Origin: Chloracidobacterium sp. CP2_5A
Lineage (GTDB): Bacteria; Acidobacteriota; Blastocatellia; Chloracidobacteriales; Chloracidobacteriaceae
DNA: 37,384 nt
NCBI GenBank assembly: GCA_002254845.1
Contig: NKPT01000035.1
Span: forward strand, 1 to 37,384
Direction: 5' to 3'
In this document: positions 26,714-33,824 of the stretch, in pieces
Numbering within the stretch: position 1 is the first letter of the stretch
Layout of the letters: every line of letters begins with the position of its first letter
The notes under the pieces: generated by a model
The model's database searches: none
Told to the model about the DNA's origin: nothing
The model's input: the letters and a program-made list of their open reading frames with translations, nothing else
Made by a program: the position numbers and the translations under genes

Positions 26714-26742
26714 GCCCCGCGCCCGGATGACCGGCGCGGGGC
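26714..26742 (+). terminator. GC-rich hairpin between the DUF937 gene and gyrA
   Basis: GCCCCGCGCCCGG (26714-26726) pairs with CCGGCGCGGGGC (26731-26742) with one bulged C and an ATGA loop. A short palindrome GGCGGCGCGCCGCC lies just before it. There is no T-tract, so termination strength is uncertain. Confidence 0.45.
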
Positions 26743-26754
26743 GGCTTGGCTTGG

Positions 26755-26799
26755 CTTGGCGCTTTCAAAAACTTGCAAAAAACTTGGCGCTTTCAAAAA
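26755..26799 (+). repeat. 17-bp direct repeat in the gyrA leader
   Basis: CTTGGCGCTTTCAAAAA occurs at 26755-26771 and again at 26783-26799, 28 bp apart, and ends 8 nt before the gyrA start. A CTTGG triplet repeat precedes it. It may be a slippage duplication or a pair of regulatory sites. Confidence 0.7.
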
Positions 26800-26807
26800 A
26801 GAAGCTT

Positions 26808-29255
26808 ATGGACGAGCAAAAACTGATACCGGCGAACATCGAAGACGAAATGCGCCGGAGCTACCTCGACTATGCCATGTCGGTCATCATCGGCCGGGCG
26901 TTGCCGGATGTCCGCGATGGCTTCAAGCCGGTGCATCGGCGCGTGCTCTGGACGATGCATGAGCTGGGTAACACGTTCAATAAGCCCTACAAGAAGAGCG
27001 CCCGCGTCGTGGGCGACACCATCGGCAAGTATCACCCGCACGGCGACCAGGCGGTTTACGACACCATCGTTCGGCTGGCGCAGGACTTTTCCATGCGCGT
27101 CCCGCTCATTGACGGGCAGGGGAATTTCGGCAGCGTGGACGGCGACGCGCCGGCGGCGATGCGGTACACCGAGGTGCGCCTCGCCCGCATCGCGGAGGCT
27201 ATGCTGGCCGATATCGAGAAAGAAACGGTTGACTTCCAGGAGAACTACGACGGCTCATTGAGCGAGCCAGTGGTGCTGCCCACGCGCTTTCCCAACCTGC
27301 TGGTAAATGGCTCGTCGGGCATCGCCGTCGGGATGTCCACCAACATTCCTCCGCACAATCTGACCGAGACGCTCGACGCCACGATCCATCTGGTCAACCA
27401 CCCTGCGGCGACCGTTGAGGACTTGATGAAGTTCATCCAGGGGCCGGATTTCCCGACCGCGGGCTTCATCTGCGGGCACAAGGGCATCCGCGACGCTTAC
27501 CTGACCGGGCGCGGCTCGATCACGATGCGCGCGCGCGCGGCCATTGACTATGTCGGCGGCAAGGGCGAGCGCGAGCGACAGGCGATTGTCGTAACGGAAC
27601 TGCCTTACCAAGTCAACAAGGCAAAGCTGCTGGAAAAGATCGCCGAGCTCGTCAACGAGAAGCGCCTCGAGGACATCGCCGACCTGCGCGACGAGAGCGA
27701 CCGCGAAGGGATGCGCATCGTTATCGAGCTCAAGCGCGGCGCCGTGGCGAAAGTCGTCTTGAACAACTTGTTCAAGCTGACGCCGATGCAAACCAACTTC
27801 GGCATCATTAACCTGGCCATTGTCAACGGGCAGCCGCAGATTCTTGATTTGGCTGAAACCCTGCGGCACTTCATTGAACACCGGCGCGAAGTTGTGCGTC
27901 GCCGGACCGCCTTTGATTTAGCCAAAGCCGAAGCGCGCGCCCACATCCTCGAAGGGCTGAAACAGGCGCTTGATGTTCTTGACGCGGTGATCGCGCTGAT
28001 TCGGGCGGCCAAATCGAGCGCCGAAGCGCGCGAAGGTCTGATGACGCGCTTCGCGTTTAGCCAGCTTCAGGCGCAAGCCATTCTGGAAATGCAGCTTCAA
28101 AAGCTGACCGGGCTGGAGCGCCAGAAAATCGCGGATGAATACGAAGCCATCATCAAGCGGATTGCCGAGCTGCGCGAAATTCTTGAAAAGGAAGCCGTGT
28201 TGCGCGCCGTCATCGTGAGCGAGCTGCAAGAGATTCGGAAAGAATACAACGAGCCGCGCCGGACGCAGATCGTGGACGAAGACGCCGAGCTAACCATCGA
28301 AGACCTCATCCCCAATGAAGAGGTTGTCATCACGATTACGCGCGGCGGGTACATCAAGCGCACGCCGCTTTCGGCCTACCGCACGCAGAAGCGCGGCGGC
28401 ACGGGGCGGCGCGGCATGGCGACCAAAGCCGAAGACGTGGTGGAGTCGCTTTACATTGCCTCAACGCACAGCTTTTTGATGATTTTCACCACGAAGGGGC
28501 AGGTTTACAAAATCAAGGTTCACGAGATTCCAGACGCGGCCACCTCCGGGCGGGGCAAGGCGATTGTCAATCTAATCAACTTGCCCGATGGCGAAAAAGT
28601 CGCCGGCACGATTCCGGTGCGGGAGTTTTCATCTGGTCAGTTCGTCGTGCTGGTGACGCGCCGGGGGATGATCAAGAAAACGGAGCTTGCGGAGTACGCC
28701 AACATTCGCTCGAACGGCATCATCGCCATGGGGATCGAAGAGAAGGACGAGCTGATGGCGGTGCAGATGAGCGATGGCGCGAAGCGCATCCTCATTTCGA
28801 CCTTCAATGGGCAGGCCATTTGCTTTGATGAGAGCGACGCTCGCGCCATGGGACGCCCCGCTTACGGAGTGATCGGCATTCGCCTGCGCGATGACGATTA
28901 TGTGACTGGCATGTCCGTGGTGACTGGAACCGAGGATGTTCTGGCCATATCGGAGCTGGGGCTTGGGAAGCGCACGCCAATGTCGGAGTATCCGGTTCAT
29001 CGCCGCGGCGGACAGGGCGTGATTACGATGCGCGTTACCGAGCGCACGGGCGGCGTTATCAAAACGCTTCCGGTCAAGGATGACGATCAAGTCGTTATCA
29101 TCACGGAAAAGGGTCAGCTTGTCCGAGTGGATGTCAAGCCGATTCGAAAAACCGGCCGCGCCGCGCAGGGCGTCAAGGTGATTAATTTGTCAGAGGATGA
29201 CAGGGTCGTGGATGCATCGCTCGTCGAAGCTTCCGGCGACGATATGGCGACCTAG
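26808..29255 (+). CDS. gyrA: DNA gyrase subunit A
   Basis: GyrA forms the DNA-cleaving part of gyrase. The 815-aa protein starts with the conserved EDEMRRSYLDYAMSVI block and has the catalytic Tyr120 in AAMRYTEVRL. The C-terminal beta-pinwheel has the GyrA box variant QKRGGTG, which favours gyrase over topoisomerase IV. In the quinolone-determining region KYHPHGDQAVYDTIV carries Gln81 where E. coli has Ser83, while the acidic Asp85 (E. coli Asp87) is kept. I chose the ATG at 26808, since the upstream frame is Lys-rich leader. gyrB is not in the window. The ribosome binding site is weak (AAGAAG). Confidence 0.96.
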   Translation: MDEQKLIPANIEDEMRRSYLDYAMSVIIGRALPDVRDGFKPVHRRVLWTMHELGNTFNKPYKKSARVVGDTIGKYHPHGDQAVYDTIVRLAQDFSMRVPLIDGQGNFGSVDGDAPAAMRYTEVRLARIAEAMLADIEKETVDFQENYDGSLSEPVVLPTRFPNLLVNGSSGIAVGMSTNIPPHNLTETLDATIHLVNHPAATVEDLMKFIQGPDFPTAGFICGHKGIRDAYLTGRGSITMRARAAIDYVGGKGERERQAIVVTELPYQVNKAKLLEKIAELVNEKRLEDIADLRDESDREGMRIVIELKRGAVAKVVLNNLFKLTPMQTNFGIINLAIVNGQPQILDLAETLRHFIEHRREVVRRRTAFDLAKAEARAHILEGLKQALDVLDAVIALIRAAKSSAEAREGLMTRFAFSQLQAQAILEMQLQKLTGLERQKIADEYEAIIKRIAELREILEKEAVLRAVIVSELQEIRKEYNEPRRTQIVDEDAELTIEDLIPNEEVVITITRGGYIKRTPLSAYRTQKRGGTGRRGMATKAEDVVESLYIASTHSFLMIFTTKGQVYKIKVHEIPDAATSGRGKAIVNLINLPDGEKVAGTIPVREFSSGQFVVLVTRRGMIKKTELAEYANIRSNGIIAMGIEEKDELMAVQMSDGAKRILISTFNGQAICFDESDARAMGRPAYGVIGIRLRDDDYVTGMSVVTGTEDVLAISELGLGKRTPMSEYPVHRRGGQGVITMRVTERTGGVIKTLPVKDDDQVVIITEKGQLVRVDVKPIRKTGRAAQGVKVINLSEDDRVVDASLVEASGDDMAT

Positions 29256-29502: not shown

Positions 29503-30819
29503 TCACTGAAGCTCAATGGCGCAGTCCGGGAAGGCTGTTTTCAGCGATTTGAGCAGTTCGGGCGACGGCCGAACGCTAAAAGCCTGATGGGCGCGGAGCC
29601 GGGCTTCGACGCCTGAAGGCAGGCGCAGCGCGAAGATGAGCGGGCGATCTCCGCGGTAAGGATCCAGCGCGTCGCGGAGCTTCTCAACCTGCGCCGCGTC
29701 GAGCGCCGCGGCCGGGAGGTGAAGCGTGACGCTTTTCGCATGGCGCTCCCGAAGCCCTTCAAGCGGCTCGGCCGCTTCAGCGATGATTTTCGCTGGCGCG
29801 TCGTCTTCAAATTCCAGGCGCCCGGTGACGAGCACGGCTGCGCCGTCCTGCACCTTGTCGCCCAATCGCTTGAATGTCTCCGGCCAAGCGATAACTTCCA
29901 GGCTGCCGGTTTCGTCCTCGAGGGTAAAAACGGCAAAGCGGTCGCCTTTTTTGGTATTTTTCACTGTGAAGGCGTTCACCACGCCGCCCATGCTGACAGT
30001 GTCTCCGTGAGCGTGGGCGGCAAGCTTGGCATAGGGCACGCTCTTGCGGCTTTCCAGCGTTTCCCGAAAAGCGGCCAGAGGGTGCCCGGTGAGGTAAAAG
30101 CCAAGCGTCGCTTTCTCGCCGGCAAGGCTTTCCTTGACATCCCAATCAGGAACGCTCGGCAGCCCCTCATCCGCGGATTGGGTCAGTTCCGCGGCGAGGC
30201 CGCCAAACAGCGAGACCTGACCAGCCGCGGCGTCTCGGCGCGCGCGCGCGCCTTGCTCCAGCGCGGCGTCAATCGCGGCGAACTTTTGAGCGCGCCCGCC
30301 GGGCAGGCTGTCAAGCGCCCCCGACTTGATGAGGCTTTCCAGGACGCGCCGGTTGAGAGCCTTTGGATCAACTCGCTCGGCAAAGTCAAAAAACGACTTG
30401 AACGGCCCCTGCTTTTCGCGGGCGTTCAAGATGGCCTCCACGGCCGCTTCGCCAAGCCCTTTGATGGCCATCAGCCCAAATCGAATCTTCCCCTCCGTCG
30501 CCGTAAAGCCAAGGCGGCTGATGTTGACATCCGGCGGCAAAATTTCGACGCCCTGCTCCCGCGCGCCCTCGATGTAACGCGCCACTTTGTCGCTGTCGCT
30601 TACCTCGCAGGTCAGAACCGCGGCCCAGAAGTGCGCCGGGTAGTGCGCCTTGAGGTAAGCCGTTCGGTAAGCCAATACGCCATAGCAGACCGAGTGGCTG
30701 TTGGCCGTCAAAACGCCGTTGACGAAGTAGTTATGGCGCGGCCCGCGCATCGTCAGGTTGTAGGTCGGCGCGACGCCAGCCGGCGTCACGCGGGCAATCT
30801 TGAGTTCACGCAGCGACAT
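29503..30819 (-). CDS. dnaE: DNA polymerase III alpha subunit, C-terminal half with split-intein C fragment (dnaE-C)
   Basis: Residues 1-40 look like the C-terminal fragment of an intein. They have a YNLTM strand, the block F/G segment HNYFVNGVLTAN (His29) and terminal Asn40. Ser41 then starts normal DnaE sequence (SHSVCYG, then YRTAYLKAHYPAHFWAA), running 398 residues through the helix-hairpin-helix and OB-fold regions (GGVVNAFTVK, FTLEDETGSLEVIAW) to the stop. PHP, palm and fingers domains are absent. An in-frame TAG at 30850-30852 limits upstream extension, and pdxS ends at 30937, so no N-terminal half adjoins. This matches a trans-splicing DnaE split intein as in cyanobacteria. The ATG at 30819 is chosen. 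A TTG at 30840 adds seven residues. The N-terminal half is not in the window. Confidence 0.9.
   Translation of the reverse strand: MSLRELKIARVTPAGVAPTYNLTMRGPRHNYFVNGVLTANSHSVCYGVLAYRTAYLKAHYPAHFWAAVLTCEVSDSDKVARYIEGAREQGVEILPPDVNISRLGFTATEGKIRFGLMAIKGLGEAAVEAILNAREKQGPFKSFFDFAERVDPKALNRRVLESLIKSGALDSLPGGRAQKFAAIDAALEQGARARRDAAAGQVSLFGGLAAELTQSADEGLPSVPDWDVKESLAGEKATLGFYLTGHPLAAFRETLESRKSVPYAKLAAHAHGDTVSMGGVVNAFTVKNTKKGDRFAVFTLEDETGSLEVIAWPETFKRLGDKVQDGAAVLVTGRLEFEDDAPAKIIAEAAEPLEGLRERHAKSVTLHLPAAALDAAQVEKLRDALDPYRGDRPLIFALRLPSGVEARLRAHQAFSVRPSPELLKSLKTAFPDCAIELQ
30700..30819 (-). other. Intein C-terminal fragment (IntC) of split DnaE
   Basis: The 40 codons encode an IntC-like module. It holds MSLRELKIARVT, a strand YNLTM, and then RHNYFVNGVLTAN, which fits intein blocks F and G, ending in the cyclising Asn. 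The penultimate residue is Ala instead of the usual His. The +1 extein residue is Ser (codon 30697-30699). Its length is like that of IntC pieces from natural split inteins. There is no endonuclease sequence. Confidence 0.85.
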
Positions 30820-30843
30820 CGTGGGAGCGAAAGCGAACAAGGG

Positions 30844-30876
30844 CGTTGCCTATGCCGTTTCAGAGCATAGGCAACG
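30844..30876. terminator. Perfect 12-bp hairpin between pdxS and dnaE-C
   Basis: CGTTGCCTATGC (30844-30855) and GCATAGGCAACG (30865-30876) are exact reverse complements around a 9-nt loop. On the minus strand it starts 60 nt after the pdxS stop and ends 24 nt before the dnaE-C ATG. It could end the pdxS transcript or act in the dnaE-C leader. There is no T-tract. Confidence 0.55.
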
Positions 30877-30936: not shown

Positions 30937-31830
30937 TCACCAGCCGCGCGCCGCCAGCGCCTGTTCCGCCGGAATGGATTCCATCGCTAGCCCTCGCATT
31001 GGCTGGCTATCCTCGATTTCCTCGCAAGCTTCCAGCACCTTAGCCGGCTCCTGATAAAACGTCGTCGCTTTGACGATGGCGCGGGCAAAGCGCTCCGGAT
31101 CATTGGATTTGAAGACGCCGGAGCCCACAAAGACCGTTTCCGCGCCGAGCTGCATGCAGAGCGCGGCATCCGCCGGCGTCGCCACCCCGCCCGCGGCAAA
31201 GAGCGGAACAGGCAGCTTGCCGTTCCGCGCCACATAGCGAACCAGCTCGTAGGGCGCTTGCAGGCGCTTAGCTTCCGCCATCAGCTCGTCTTCATCGAGA
31301 ACTGTCAACAGCCGGATGTCGCGCCGGATGTCGCGCAAATGCCGTACCGCTTCAATAATGTTGCCGGTCCCGGCTTCGCCCTTGCTCCGAATCAAGGCCG
31401 CGCCTTCGCCAATTCGGCGCAGCGCCTCGCCTAAGTTGGTCGCGCCGCAGACAAACGGCACGCGAAAGGCGAGCTTGTCTATATGGCGATGCGGATCGGC
31501 CGGGGTTAGCACTTCCGACTCGTCAATGAAATCCACGCCGAGGGCTTCAAGAACCTGGGCCTCGGCCAGATGGCCTATGCGAGCCTTGGCCATCACTGGA
31601 ATTGAGACGGCTTCCATAATCTGCCGAATCATGCGCGGGTTCGACATCCGCGCCACGCCGCCGTCGCGCCGAATATCGGCCGGGACGCGCTCCAGCGCCA
31701 TCACGGCCACCGCGCCGGCTTCCTCGGCAATGCGGGCCTGCTCGACATTGACGACATCCATGATGACGCCGCCCTTGAGCATTTCGGCGAGTCCAGTTTT
31801 GAGTCGCATCGGTTGCTGGGTGTCATTCAT
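30937..31830 (-). CDS. pdxS: Pyridoxal 5'-phosphate synthase lyase subunit PdxS
   Basis: PdxS condenses ribose 5-phosphate, glyceraldehyde 3-phosphate and PdxT-derived ammonia into pyridoxal phosphate. The 297-aa protein has the very conserved family blocks [20 protein letters not shown], the loop [36 protein letters not shown] and [14 protein letters not shown] with VGSGVFKS. Length is typical. I chose the ATG at 31830, preceded by GGAGGAA about 9-11 nt upstream. The genes larB and hemB lie before it on the same strand, while its partner pdxT is at 379-966. Confidence 0.97.
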
Positions 31831-31993
31831 CAGGCGAACTTCCTCCGAATAACGCTGCCAATCGTTTTTTATCGGGACAACGTTTCGTTGCCTCCGGCTT
31901 GCGCGGGGGCGCGCTGCCAACGCGCACGGTACGGCCGCCGCCGCTGCGCGCGCAACGGCCATTTGGCGTGAATTTGCAACCAATAGCGAAGCT

Positions 31994-33824
<1,831 letters not shown>

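Follow-up and report, generated by a model that had tools for sequence, protein, structure and literature searches.

How does a bacterium obtain its replicative DNA polymerase when the gene at hand encodes only the second half of the enzyme, headed by the end of an intein? This question is raised by a stretch of 37,384 nucleotides (the window), positions 1 to 37,384 of contig NKPT01000035.1 of Chloracidobacterium sp. CP2_5A (assembly GCA_002254845.1); members of Chloracidobacterium are light-harvesting acidobacteria, and the genus is placed in the class Blastocatellia. On the minus strand of the window, an open reading frame (ORF) that runs from an ATG at 30819 to a stop codon at 29503-29505 reads MSLRELKIARVTPAGVAPTYNLTMRGPRHNYFVNGVLTAN followed by SHSVCYG, and its 40-residue C-terminal intein fragment (IntC) continues directly into DnaE from the latter motif. 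An earlier note on this DNA had proposed that the ORF is one half of a split dnaE whose product is completed by protein trans-splicing, and the reading of the ORF on which that proposal was built is confirmed by an IntC model (expectation value, E, 1.1e-29, for a model of 11 rows of which the window sequence is itself one) and by the DnaE model TIGR00594, which is covered from position 749 to 1022 (E 7.9e-79), with additional domain matches to PF14579 (E 2.4e-33) and PF01336 (E 1.2e-11). A chance match to IntC is ruled out by this E value together with the presence of the same fragment at the same place in other genomes. As the note also stated, an in-frame TAG (30852-30850) precedes the ATG by 11 codons, with pdxS beyond it (PRK04180, E 6e-147); the C half is therefore a separate gene.

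The rest of the polymerase is encoded elsewhere in the same assembly (G000; 3.41 Mb in 385 contigs, 95.4% complete), since a search with TIGR00594 returned exactly two DnaE matches, the C half in the window and positions 1-750 on contig C175. This outcome agrees with the lack of a DnaE N half in the window, and it answers the search that the earlier note had called for: the N half on C175 consists of 765 residues ending in ...FADYAFNK, followed by a Cys-started, 142-residue N-terminal intein fragment (IntN) that reads CVTGDATVRDAVTGEL...CTLDHKFYT... up to a stop codon. Similarity of IntN to known inteins is seen both with TIGR01445 (intein_Nterm, E 2.3e-10, 41.3 bits vs a cut-off of 24.5) and in the Protein Data Bank (PDB), where the best matches of its profile are DnaE inteins of the Npu or cyanobacterial type (4lx3, E 1.7e-11). 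The exteins, when joined, give FADYAFNK-SHSVCYG. A complete dnaE, which would have reduced the C half to a dead fragment, was not found when G000 and the genus members were searched with TIGR00594, and the assembly holds only the two partial DnaE matches.

The same arrangement is found throughout the genus. Among 58 genomes searched, the present one included, all seven of Chloracidobacterium contain two DnaE matches (1-750 or 1-751, and 749-1022) at separate places, with an N-extein that ends in FNK and a C-extein that starts with SHS. In the two-contig assemblies both halves are located on contig C1, where they are 1.45 (G001), 1.43 (G004) and 0.72 Mb (G005) apart along the contig. The fragmentation of G000 into 385 contigs and the location of its two halves on different ones could have pointed to an assembly artefact, namely a continuous intein-bearing dnaE that was broken and joined to pdxS, a misassembly that the earlier note had itself considered. 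Such an artefact is barely conceivable, in view of the recurrence of the arrangement in 7/7 genus members (three of them as two-contig assemblies), the partly conserved neighbours of the halves in a synteny comparison, and the stop codon that each half has of its own. The split of DnaE in Chloracidobacterium is real and genus-wide.

A class 1 intein has Cys1, a TxxH motif in block B, a terminal HN...Asn, and Cys, Ser or Thr at position +1. In the present intein Cys1, block B TxxH, HN...AN and Ser+1 are kept in all 15 genomes that carry it. The ratio of nonsynonymous to synonymous substitution rates (dN/dS), calculated for five pairs of genus members, lies at 0.07-0.27 in the IntN core, at 0-0.20 in IntC and at 0.08-0.17 in the C-extein, and rises to 0.31-0.96 in the tail behind IntN residue 112 (three computable pairs). 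Low values in the core and higher ones in the tail are what would be expected of a fragment that is retained for splicing and whose end is free. Split enzymes can in principle work non-covalently, and the two halves might accordingly form a two-subunit polymerase in which the intein fragments are decaying relics; but this is very unlikely when every splicing residue is retained in 15/15 genomes and when purifying selection acts on the IntN core and on IntC but less, or not at all, on the tail behind IntN. Because the splicing residues are conserved in all 15 genomes and the intein is under purifying selection, trans-splicing of DnaE in Chloracidobacterium is very likely and the intein is very probably functional, and we infer that the replicative polymerase would be obtained only through this reaction.

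In the mechanism that we propose, two precursors, DnaE-N (765 residues) fused to IntN (142 residues) and IntC (40 residues) fused to DnaE-C (398 residues), would associate through their intein fragments, which would fold as one HINT domain and splice in trans by an acyl shift at Cys1, transfer to Ser+1, cyclisation of Asn and a final acyl shift. The product would be a scarless DnaE with the junction FADYAFNK-SHSVCYG, for which the predicted junction peptide is YAFNKSHSVCYG. Three observations weigh against this proposal: the Pfam model Intein_splicing scores 15.3 bits on the N half, below its cut-off of 35.8, where half a domain is present; IntC alone matches solved inteins weakly (a DnaB intein, E 0.0087), as is expected for 40 residues; and G000 is a fragmented assembly (385 contigs, 95.4% complete). 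On the sequence evidence we nevertheless hold with high confidence that two distant genes supply the polymerase as separate proteins that would be joined in trans.

How does this system relate to the split DnaE of cyanobacteria? In the cyanobacterial type, represented here by an Npu query sequence that matches PDB chains, the intein is bounded as AEY^C...N^CFN, where ^ marks the splice junctions, so that its site is Y^CFN(KSHS) with Cys at +1, and the split PolB of Nanoarchaeum equitans is a case outside bacteria. The earlier note had called the present locus the architecture of cyanobacterial split DnaE, which holds for the architecture: as in the Ssp and Npu systems, the same gene is interrupted, the intein is split into IntN and IntC, the halves are separate genes, and the IntN fragments are related (4lx3, as above). 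It does not hold for the insertion site, which is FNK^SHS, three residues downstream of Y^CFN, or for the +1 residue, which is Ser in 15/15 genomes vs Cys in the cyanobacterial allele. IntC also ends here in AN after T or S (TAN, SAN), whereas the cyanobacterial fragment ends in ASN; and, unlike the cyanobacterial system, this one occurs in another phylum, where some relatives have an endonuclease gene lying between the two parts. It is a new form of split intein that differs from the cyanobacterial allele in its site, its +1 residue and its context.

These differences also bear on whether the split gene or its intein was acquired from cyanobacteria that share a habitat with Chloracidobacterium. 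Such a transfer would fit with the cyanobacterial DnaE inteins as best PDB matches of the IntN profile and with the overlap of the habitats. It is highly improbable, however, given the site three residues downstream and the Ser rather than Cys at +1, an extein tree in which the DnaE exteins group with Blastocatellia relatives, an intein tree in which the 15 inteins stand apart on a long branch from Npu (the sole cyanobacterial intein included), and the existence within the class Blastocatellia of in-place forms of its own.

The split is not confined to Chloracidobacterium, as the class contains forms in which dnaE is split in place, most of which have an endonuclease gene at the split point. 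Of 162 class genomes, 20 are matched by the IntC model, 15 of them strongly (E < 1e-25) and five weakly (E 1e-6 to 6e-4), and the IntN model matches 49 of the 162, the same 15 strongly (E < 1e-40) and 34 weakly. Rows from most of these 15 genomes had gone into building the models, whereas G147, G150 and G151 had supplied none and were recovered with them. In a phylum sample, 13/396 genomes match, eight strongly (all among the 15) and five weakly. A scan of 84,980 named species genomes yielded at least six loci from 14 matching stretches, all acidobacterial, a lower bound since the scan used two peptide patterns only and may miss records near the window. Among plasmids, the N-half search gave none more than 80% identical within the best 10 of 2054 records. 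In a viral collection, 37, 96 and 203 stretches fit a pattern derived from the IntC, endonuclease and IntN alignments, respectively, and none was confirmed, while Npu IntC with its flank found 11 loci.

The eight intein-bearing Blastocatellia outside the genus comprise five with an endonuclease cassette, one with a remnant of 22 codons, one with a Uma2-family ORF and one in which the intein is fused in frame. In the first five (G025, G033, G147, G150 and G151) the order dnaE-N-IntN, endonuclease ORF, IntC-dnaE-C is maintained in place in overlapping frames, with the endonuclease ORF, of 268-270 residues, in the +1 frame between the halves. The ORF of G025 is a LAGLIDADG_3 endonuclease (PF14528, 42.4 bits vs a cut-off of 22.5), and those of the other four are 56-67% identical to it by alignment, the domain scan having been made on G025. 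In all five the endonuclease ORF starts within the IntN tail, at an ATG that precedes the end of the IntN stop codon by 23-44 bases and is itself preceded by GGAG at a distance of 8-11 bases; the encoded N-terminus is MP[RH][TP]AW[NT]K[RK]L. The TGA of this ORF overlaps an in-frame IntC ATG as ATGA, and in G150 and G151 that ATG comes second in the open frame. With dN/dS of 0.21 and 0.09 in two non-saturated pairs, the endonuclease is conserved. G014 has in its place only a 22-codon ORF, MPRTAWNKRLTPEIEERITRYL and a stop codon, that starts like the endonuclease gene and ends with its last bases, still overlapping the IntC ATG as ATGA. G007 has the Uma2-family ORF (PF05685, E 9.1e-15), which overlaps the IntC-frame ATG as TAATG, and in G009 the intein lies within one open frame of 1702 residues. 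In Chloracidobacterium, where the halves are apart, no endonuclease ORF stands between them, and no match to the endonuclease model was obtained in 7/7 genomes. A second, contiguous intein, placed ahead of C[TV]YQEQ at position 676 of the DnaE profile, was observed in G007 (L046), G009 (L047) and G033 (L050), and in G009 its region matches LAGLIDADG_3; therefore, two splicing events would be needed to make the polymerases of these three.

Gene halves with IntN, IntC and a free-standing endonuclease gene between them have reportedly been described as 'fractured genes' by Dassa et al. in 2009, with an endonuclease of a Vsr-like family. The five Blastocatellia genomes have the same layout of gene halves, IntN, IntC and intervening endonuclease ORF; in contrast to those fractured genes, the gene is a bacterial chromosomal dnaE and the endonuclease is LAGLIDADG_3, not Vsr-like, and remnant, replaced, fused and dispersed states occur inside one class. 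According to PMC6390638, Desulfonema ishimotonii is likewise a bacterial, non-cyanobacterial case of a dnaE in two coding sequences with an intein, which its authors consider not to be a split-intein arrangement; unlike here, the coding sequences are adjacent and a 415-residue intein lies inside one of them. In the section of PMC4071816 with Table 3, rir1-b is the sole allele entered for C. thermophilum B, and the passages of PMC3919608 on cyanobacterial polymerases that an intein divides make no mention of Chloracidobacterium. No description of a split DnaE in Acidobacteriota was found among the matches listed by searches of the open full-text literature, and an earlier mention elsewhere is possible.

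These states can be arranged in an order. A cassette of IntN, an out-of-frame, free-standing LAGLIDADG gene and IntC would have broken dnaE in place at FNK^SHS; the endonuclease would next have been lost or replaced; and a rearrangement in the ancestor of Chloracidobacterium would then have separated the halves, fixing the dependence on splicing. On the DnaE tree, G009, the only genome with the contiguous form, lies inside a group of split forms, and because a single re-fusion costs less than three independent splits, the order from cassette through endonuclease loss or replacement to dispersal is favoured and appears reasonably probable. The opposite course, in which a contiguous mini-intein like that of G009 was ancestral, was split several times independently and was later invaded by endonucleases at some of the split points, draws on the single frame of the G009 intein and on the splitting of mini-inteins proposed in a review (PMC7765530). 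It requires at least three splits vs one re-fusion, and with a G009 linker that resembles split IntN tails and an endonuclease remnant at the split point of G014, it is unlikely, though less so than the rivals considered above. The cassette-first order is itself weakened by the few genomes on which it rests and by the nature of five records outside but near Chloracidobacterium (four, plus one 'uncultured Blastocatellia'), which are metagenome assemblies.

Did the split cassette itself move? The DnaE extein tree places the three intein-bearing f4 genomes with intein-less f4 genomes, far from f3 and f1, and the intein label changes three times on it, each change forced by well-supported branches; this tree leaves out 8 of 30 relatives' loci in which a pattern found no plain DnaE, and carries a long-branch warning for G056 and G057. 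In the intein tree, of which 5/15 inner branches are well supported, the f4 inteins are intermingled with f3 inteins and have that of G033 as their neighbour (support 92/93). Between G033 and G150, the N- and C-exteins are 60% and 43% identical, IntN and IntC 75% and 70%, and the endonucleases 60%, as opposed to pairs that look vertical, in which the N-extein exceeds IntN (88% vs 74%, G000-G001) or the intein (85% vs 63%, G007-G009). Empty sites are found in the same genera as the cassette: G152, which shares a genus with G150 and G151, carries FNR^SHS in a dnaE without interruption, with 92% identity over the final 500 residues of its N part, and the site is also empty in G148, of the genus of G147. 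In G149, from the genus of G150, the DnaE match is unbroken over 1-888 in one frame.

Some of these data are neutral or speak against a transfer. The three label changes are compatible with one gain and two losses; f1 and f4 inteins are as alike as the exteins or more so (G000-G150, extein 54%/42%, intein 57%/62%), which makes the transfer argument weaker; and the similarity of IntC and of the endonuclease is higher within f3 (G033-G025, 88%/68%) than between f3 and f4 (70%/60%). Identities alone are therefore no proof of recent transfer, and presence and absence within two genera are the stronger argument for movement. The empty sites in these genera point to homing as the way in which the split cassette itself may have moved. 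The +1 Ser codon is AGY in 15/15 intein-bearing genes vs 11 of 27 intein-less ones (found by pattern among 33 loci), a bias that is suggestive of co-conversion and is not used as proof. On balance we lean slightly towards a mobile split intein, in which a cassette of IntN, out-of-frame LAGLIDADG gene and IntC would insert itself by homing at the FNK^SHS site of a bacterial dnaE and disrupt the gene, so that splitting would be a property of the element and not a later accident; Chloracidobacterium would then be an end point, with the endonuclease lost, the halves dispersed and the host dependent on trans-splicing.

Related arrangements were seen on viral contigs. On L124 (3389-5029 and 5001-6239; L125 gives the same match) a DnaE is split at Y^CFN, the site in full being KKFADY^CLSYDTK... 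and ...VASN^CFNKSHS, with IntC in an overlapping ORF. Like the Blastocatellia cassettes, L124 and L125 have an endonuclease of the LAGLIDADG type between IntN and IntC (29% identity with the G025 protein over ~200 residues), but it is in frame behind IntN, and the site is Y^CFN with Cys+1. IntC-DnaE-C ORFs at Y^CFN are also present on L126 (1247-2884 and 4950-6227), where the N half is ~2 kb upstream with other ORFs between, and on L127 (4995-6236), with no N half in the stretch listed. On contig L129 (1620-6290) the FNK^SH site of the acidobacterial intein is likewise occupied by a DnaE intein, here a contiguous one, with Ser at +1; unlike in Chloracidobacterium, it is one continuous ORF with an HNH-like stretch, as read by eye.

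Features of the dnaE loci and their neighbours are collected in Table 1. The PRK04180 match to pdxS starts at residue 77, so that the true start of this gene probably lies further downstream. A gene of the pdxS cluster (c3) stands beside the C half in 5/7 genus members, and the N half adjoins a gene of the bchX cluster also in G001 and G005. Ahead of the C half, in the window (30820-30860) as at the other C loci of Chloracidobacterium, no Shine-Dalgarno sequence is evident, and a GCAACG block occurs ~30 bases upstream of the ATG in 5/7 genomes.

Table 1. Location of the dnaE halves, intein fragments and adjoining genes; positions without a prefix are those of the window.
Feature	Position	Strand	Evidence
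IntC, 40 aa, C-terminal HNYFVNGVLTAN	30700..30819	-	IntC model E 1.1e-29; kept in 15 genomes
DnaE C-terminal extein and stop, 398 aa, HHH_6, OB fold	29503..30699	-	TIGR00594, PF14579, PF01336
In-frame TAG, 11 codons upstream of the C-half ATG	30850..30852	-	ORF reading
pdxS, upstream neighbour of the C half	30937..32055	-	NCBIfam PRK04180 E 6e-147
gyrA, convergent, downstream of the C half	26727..29255	+	NCBIfam PRK05560, 1214.1 bits vs cut-off 902
DnaE-N and IntN, 907 aa	G000:C175:13302-16025 (= L001:1075-3798)	-	TIGR00594, TIGR01445
bchX (chlorophyllide reductase subunit), upstream of DnaE-N in G000	L001:4193-5077	-	TIGR02016, 336.6 bits vs 331.2
Uma2-family putative endonuclease ORF between the dnaE halves of G007	L046:6724-7437	-	PF05685

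The inteins described here, some of which come from thermophiles, are new candidates for trans-splicing tools. They also provide a readable series of states, with the cassette in place, reduced to a remnant, replaced, fused or dispersed, for steps that are given only as 'a series of intermediate steps' in a review (PMC3403396). For Chloracidobacterium itself, the split means that, after the cyanobacteria, this would be the second bacterial phylum in which the only replicative polymerase found would need trans-splicing, and that it would do so through a different site of the same gene, dnaE.
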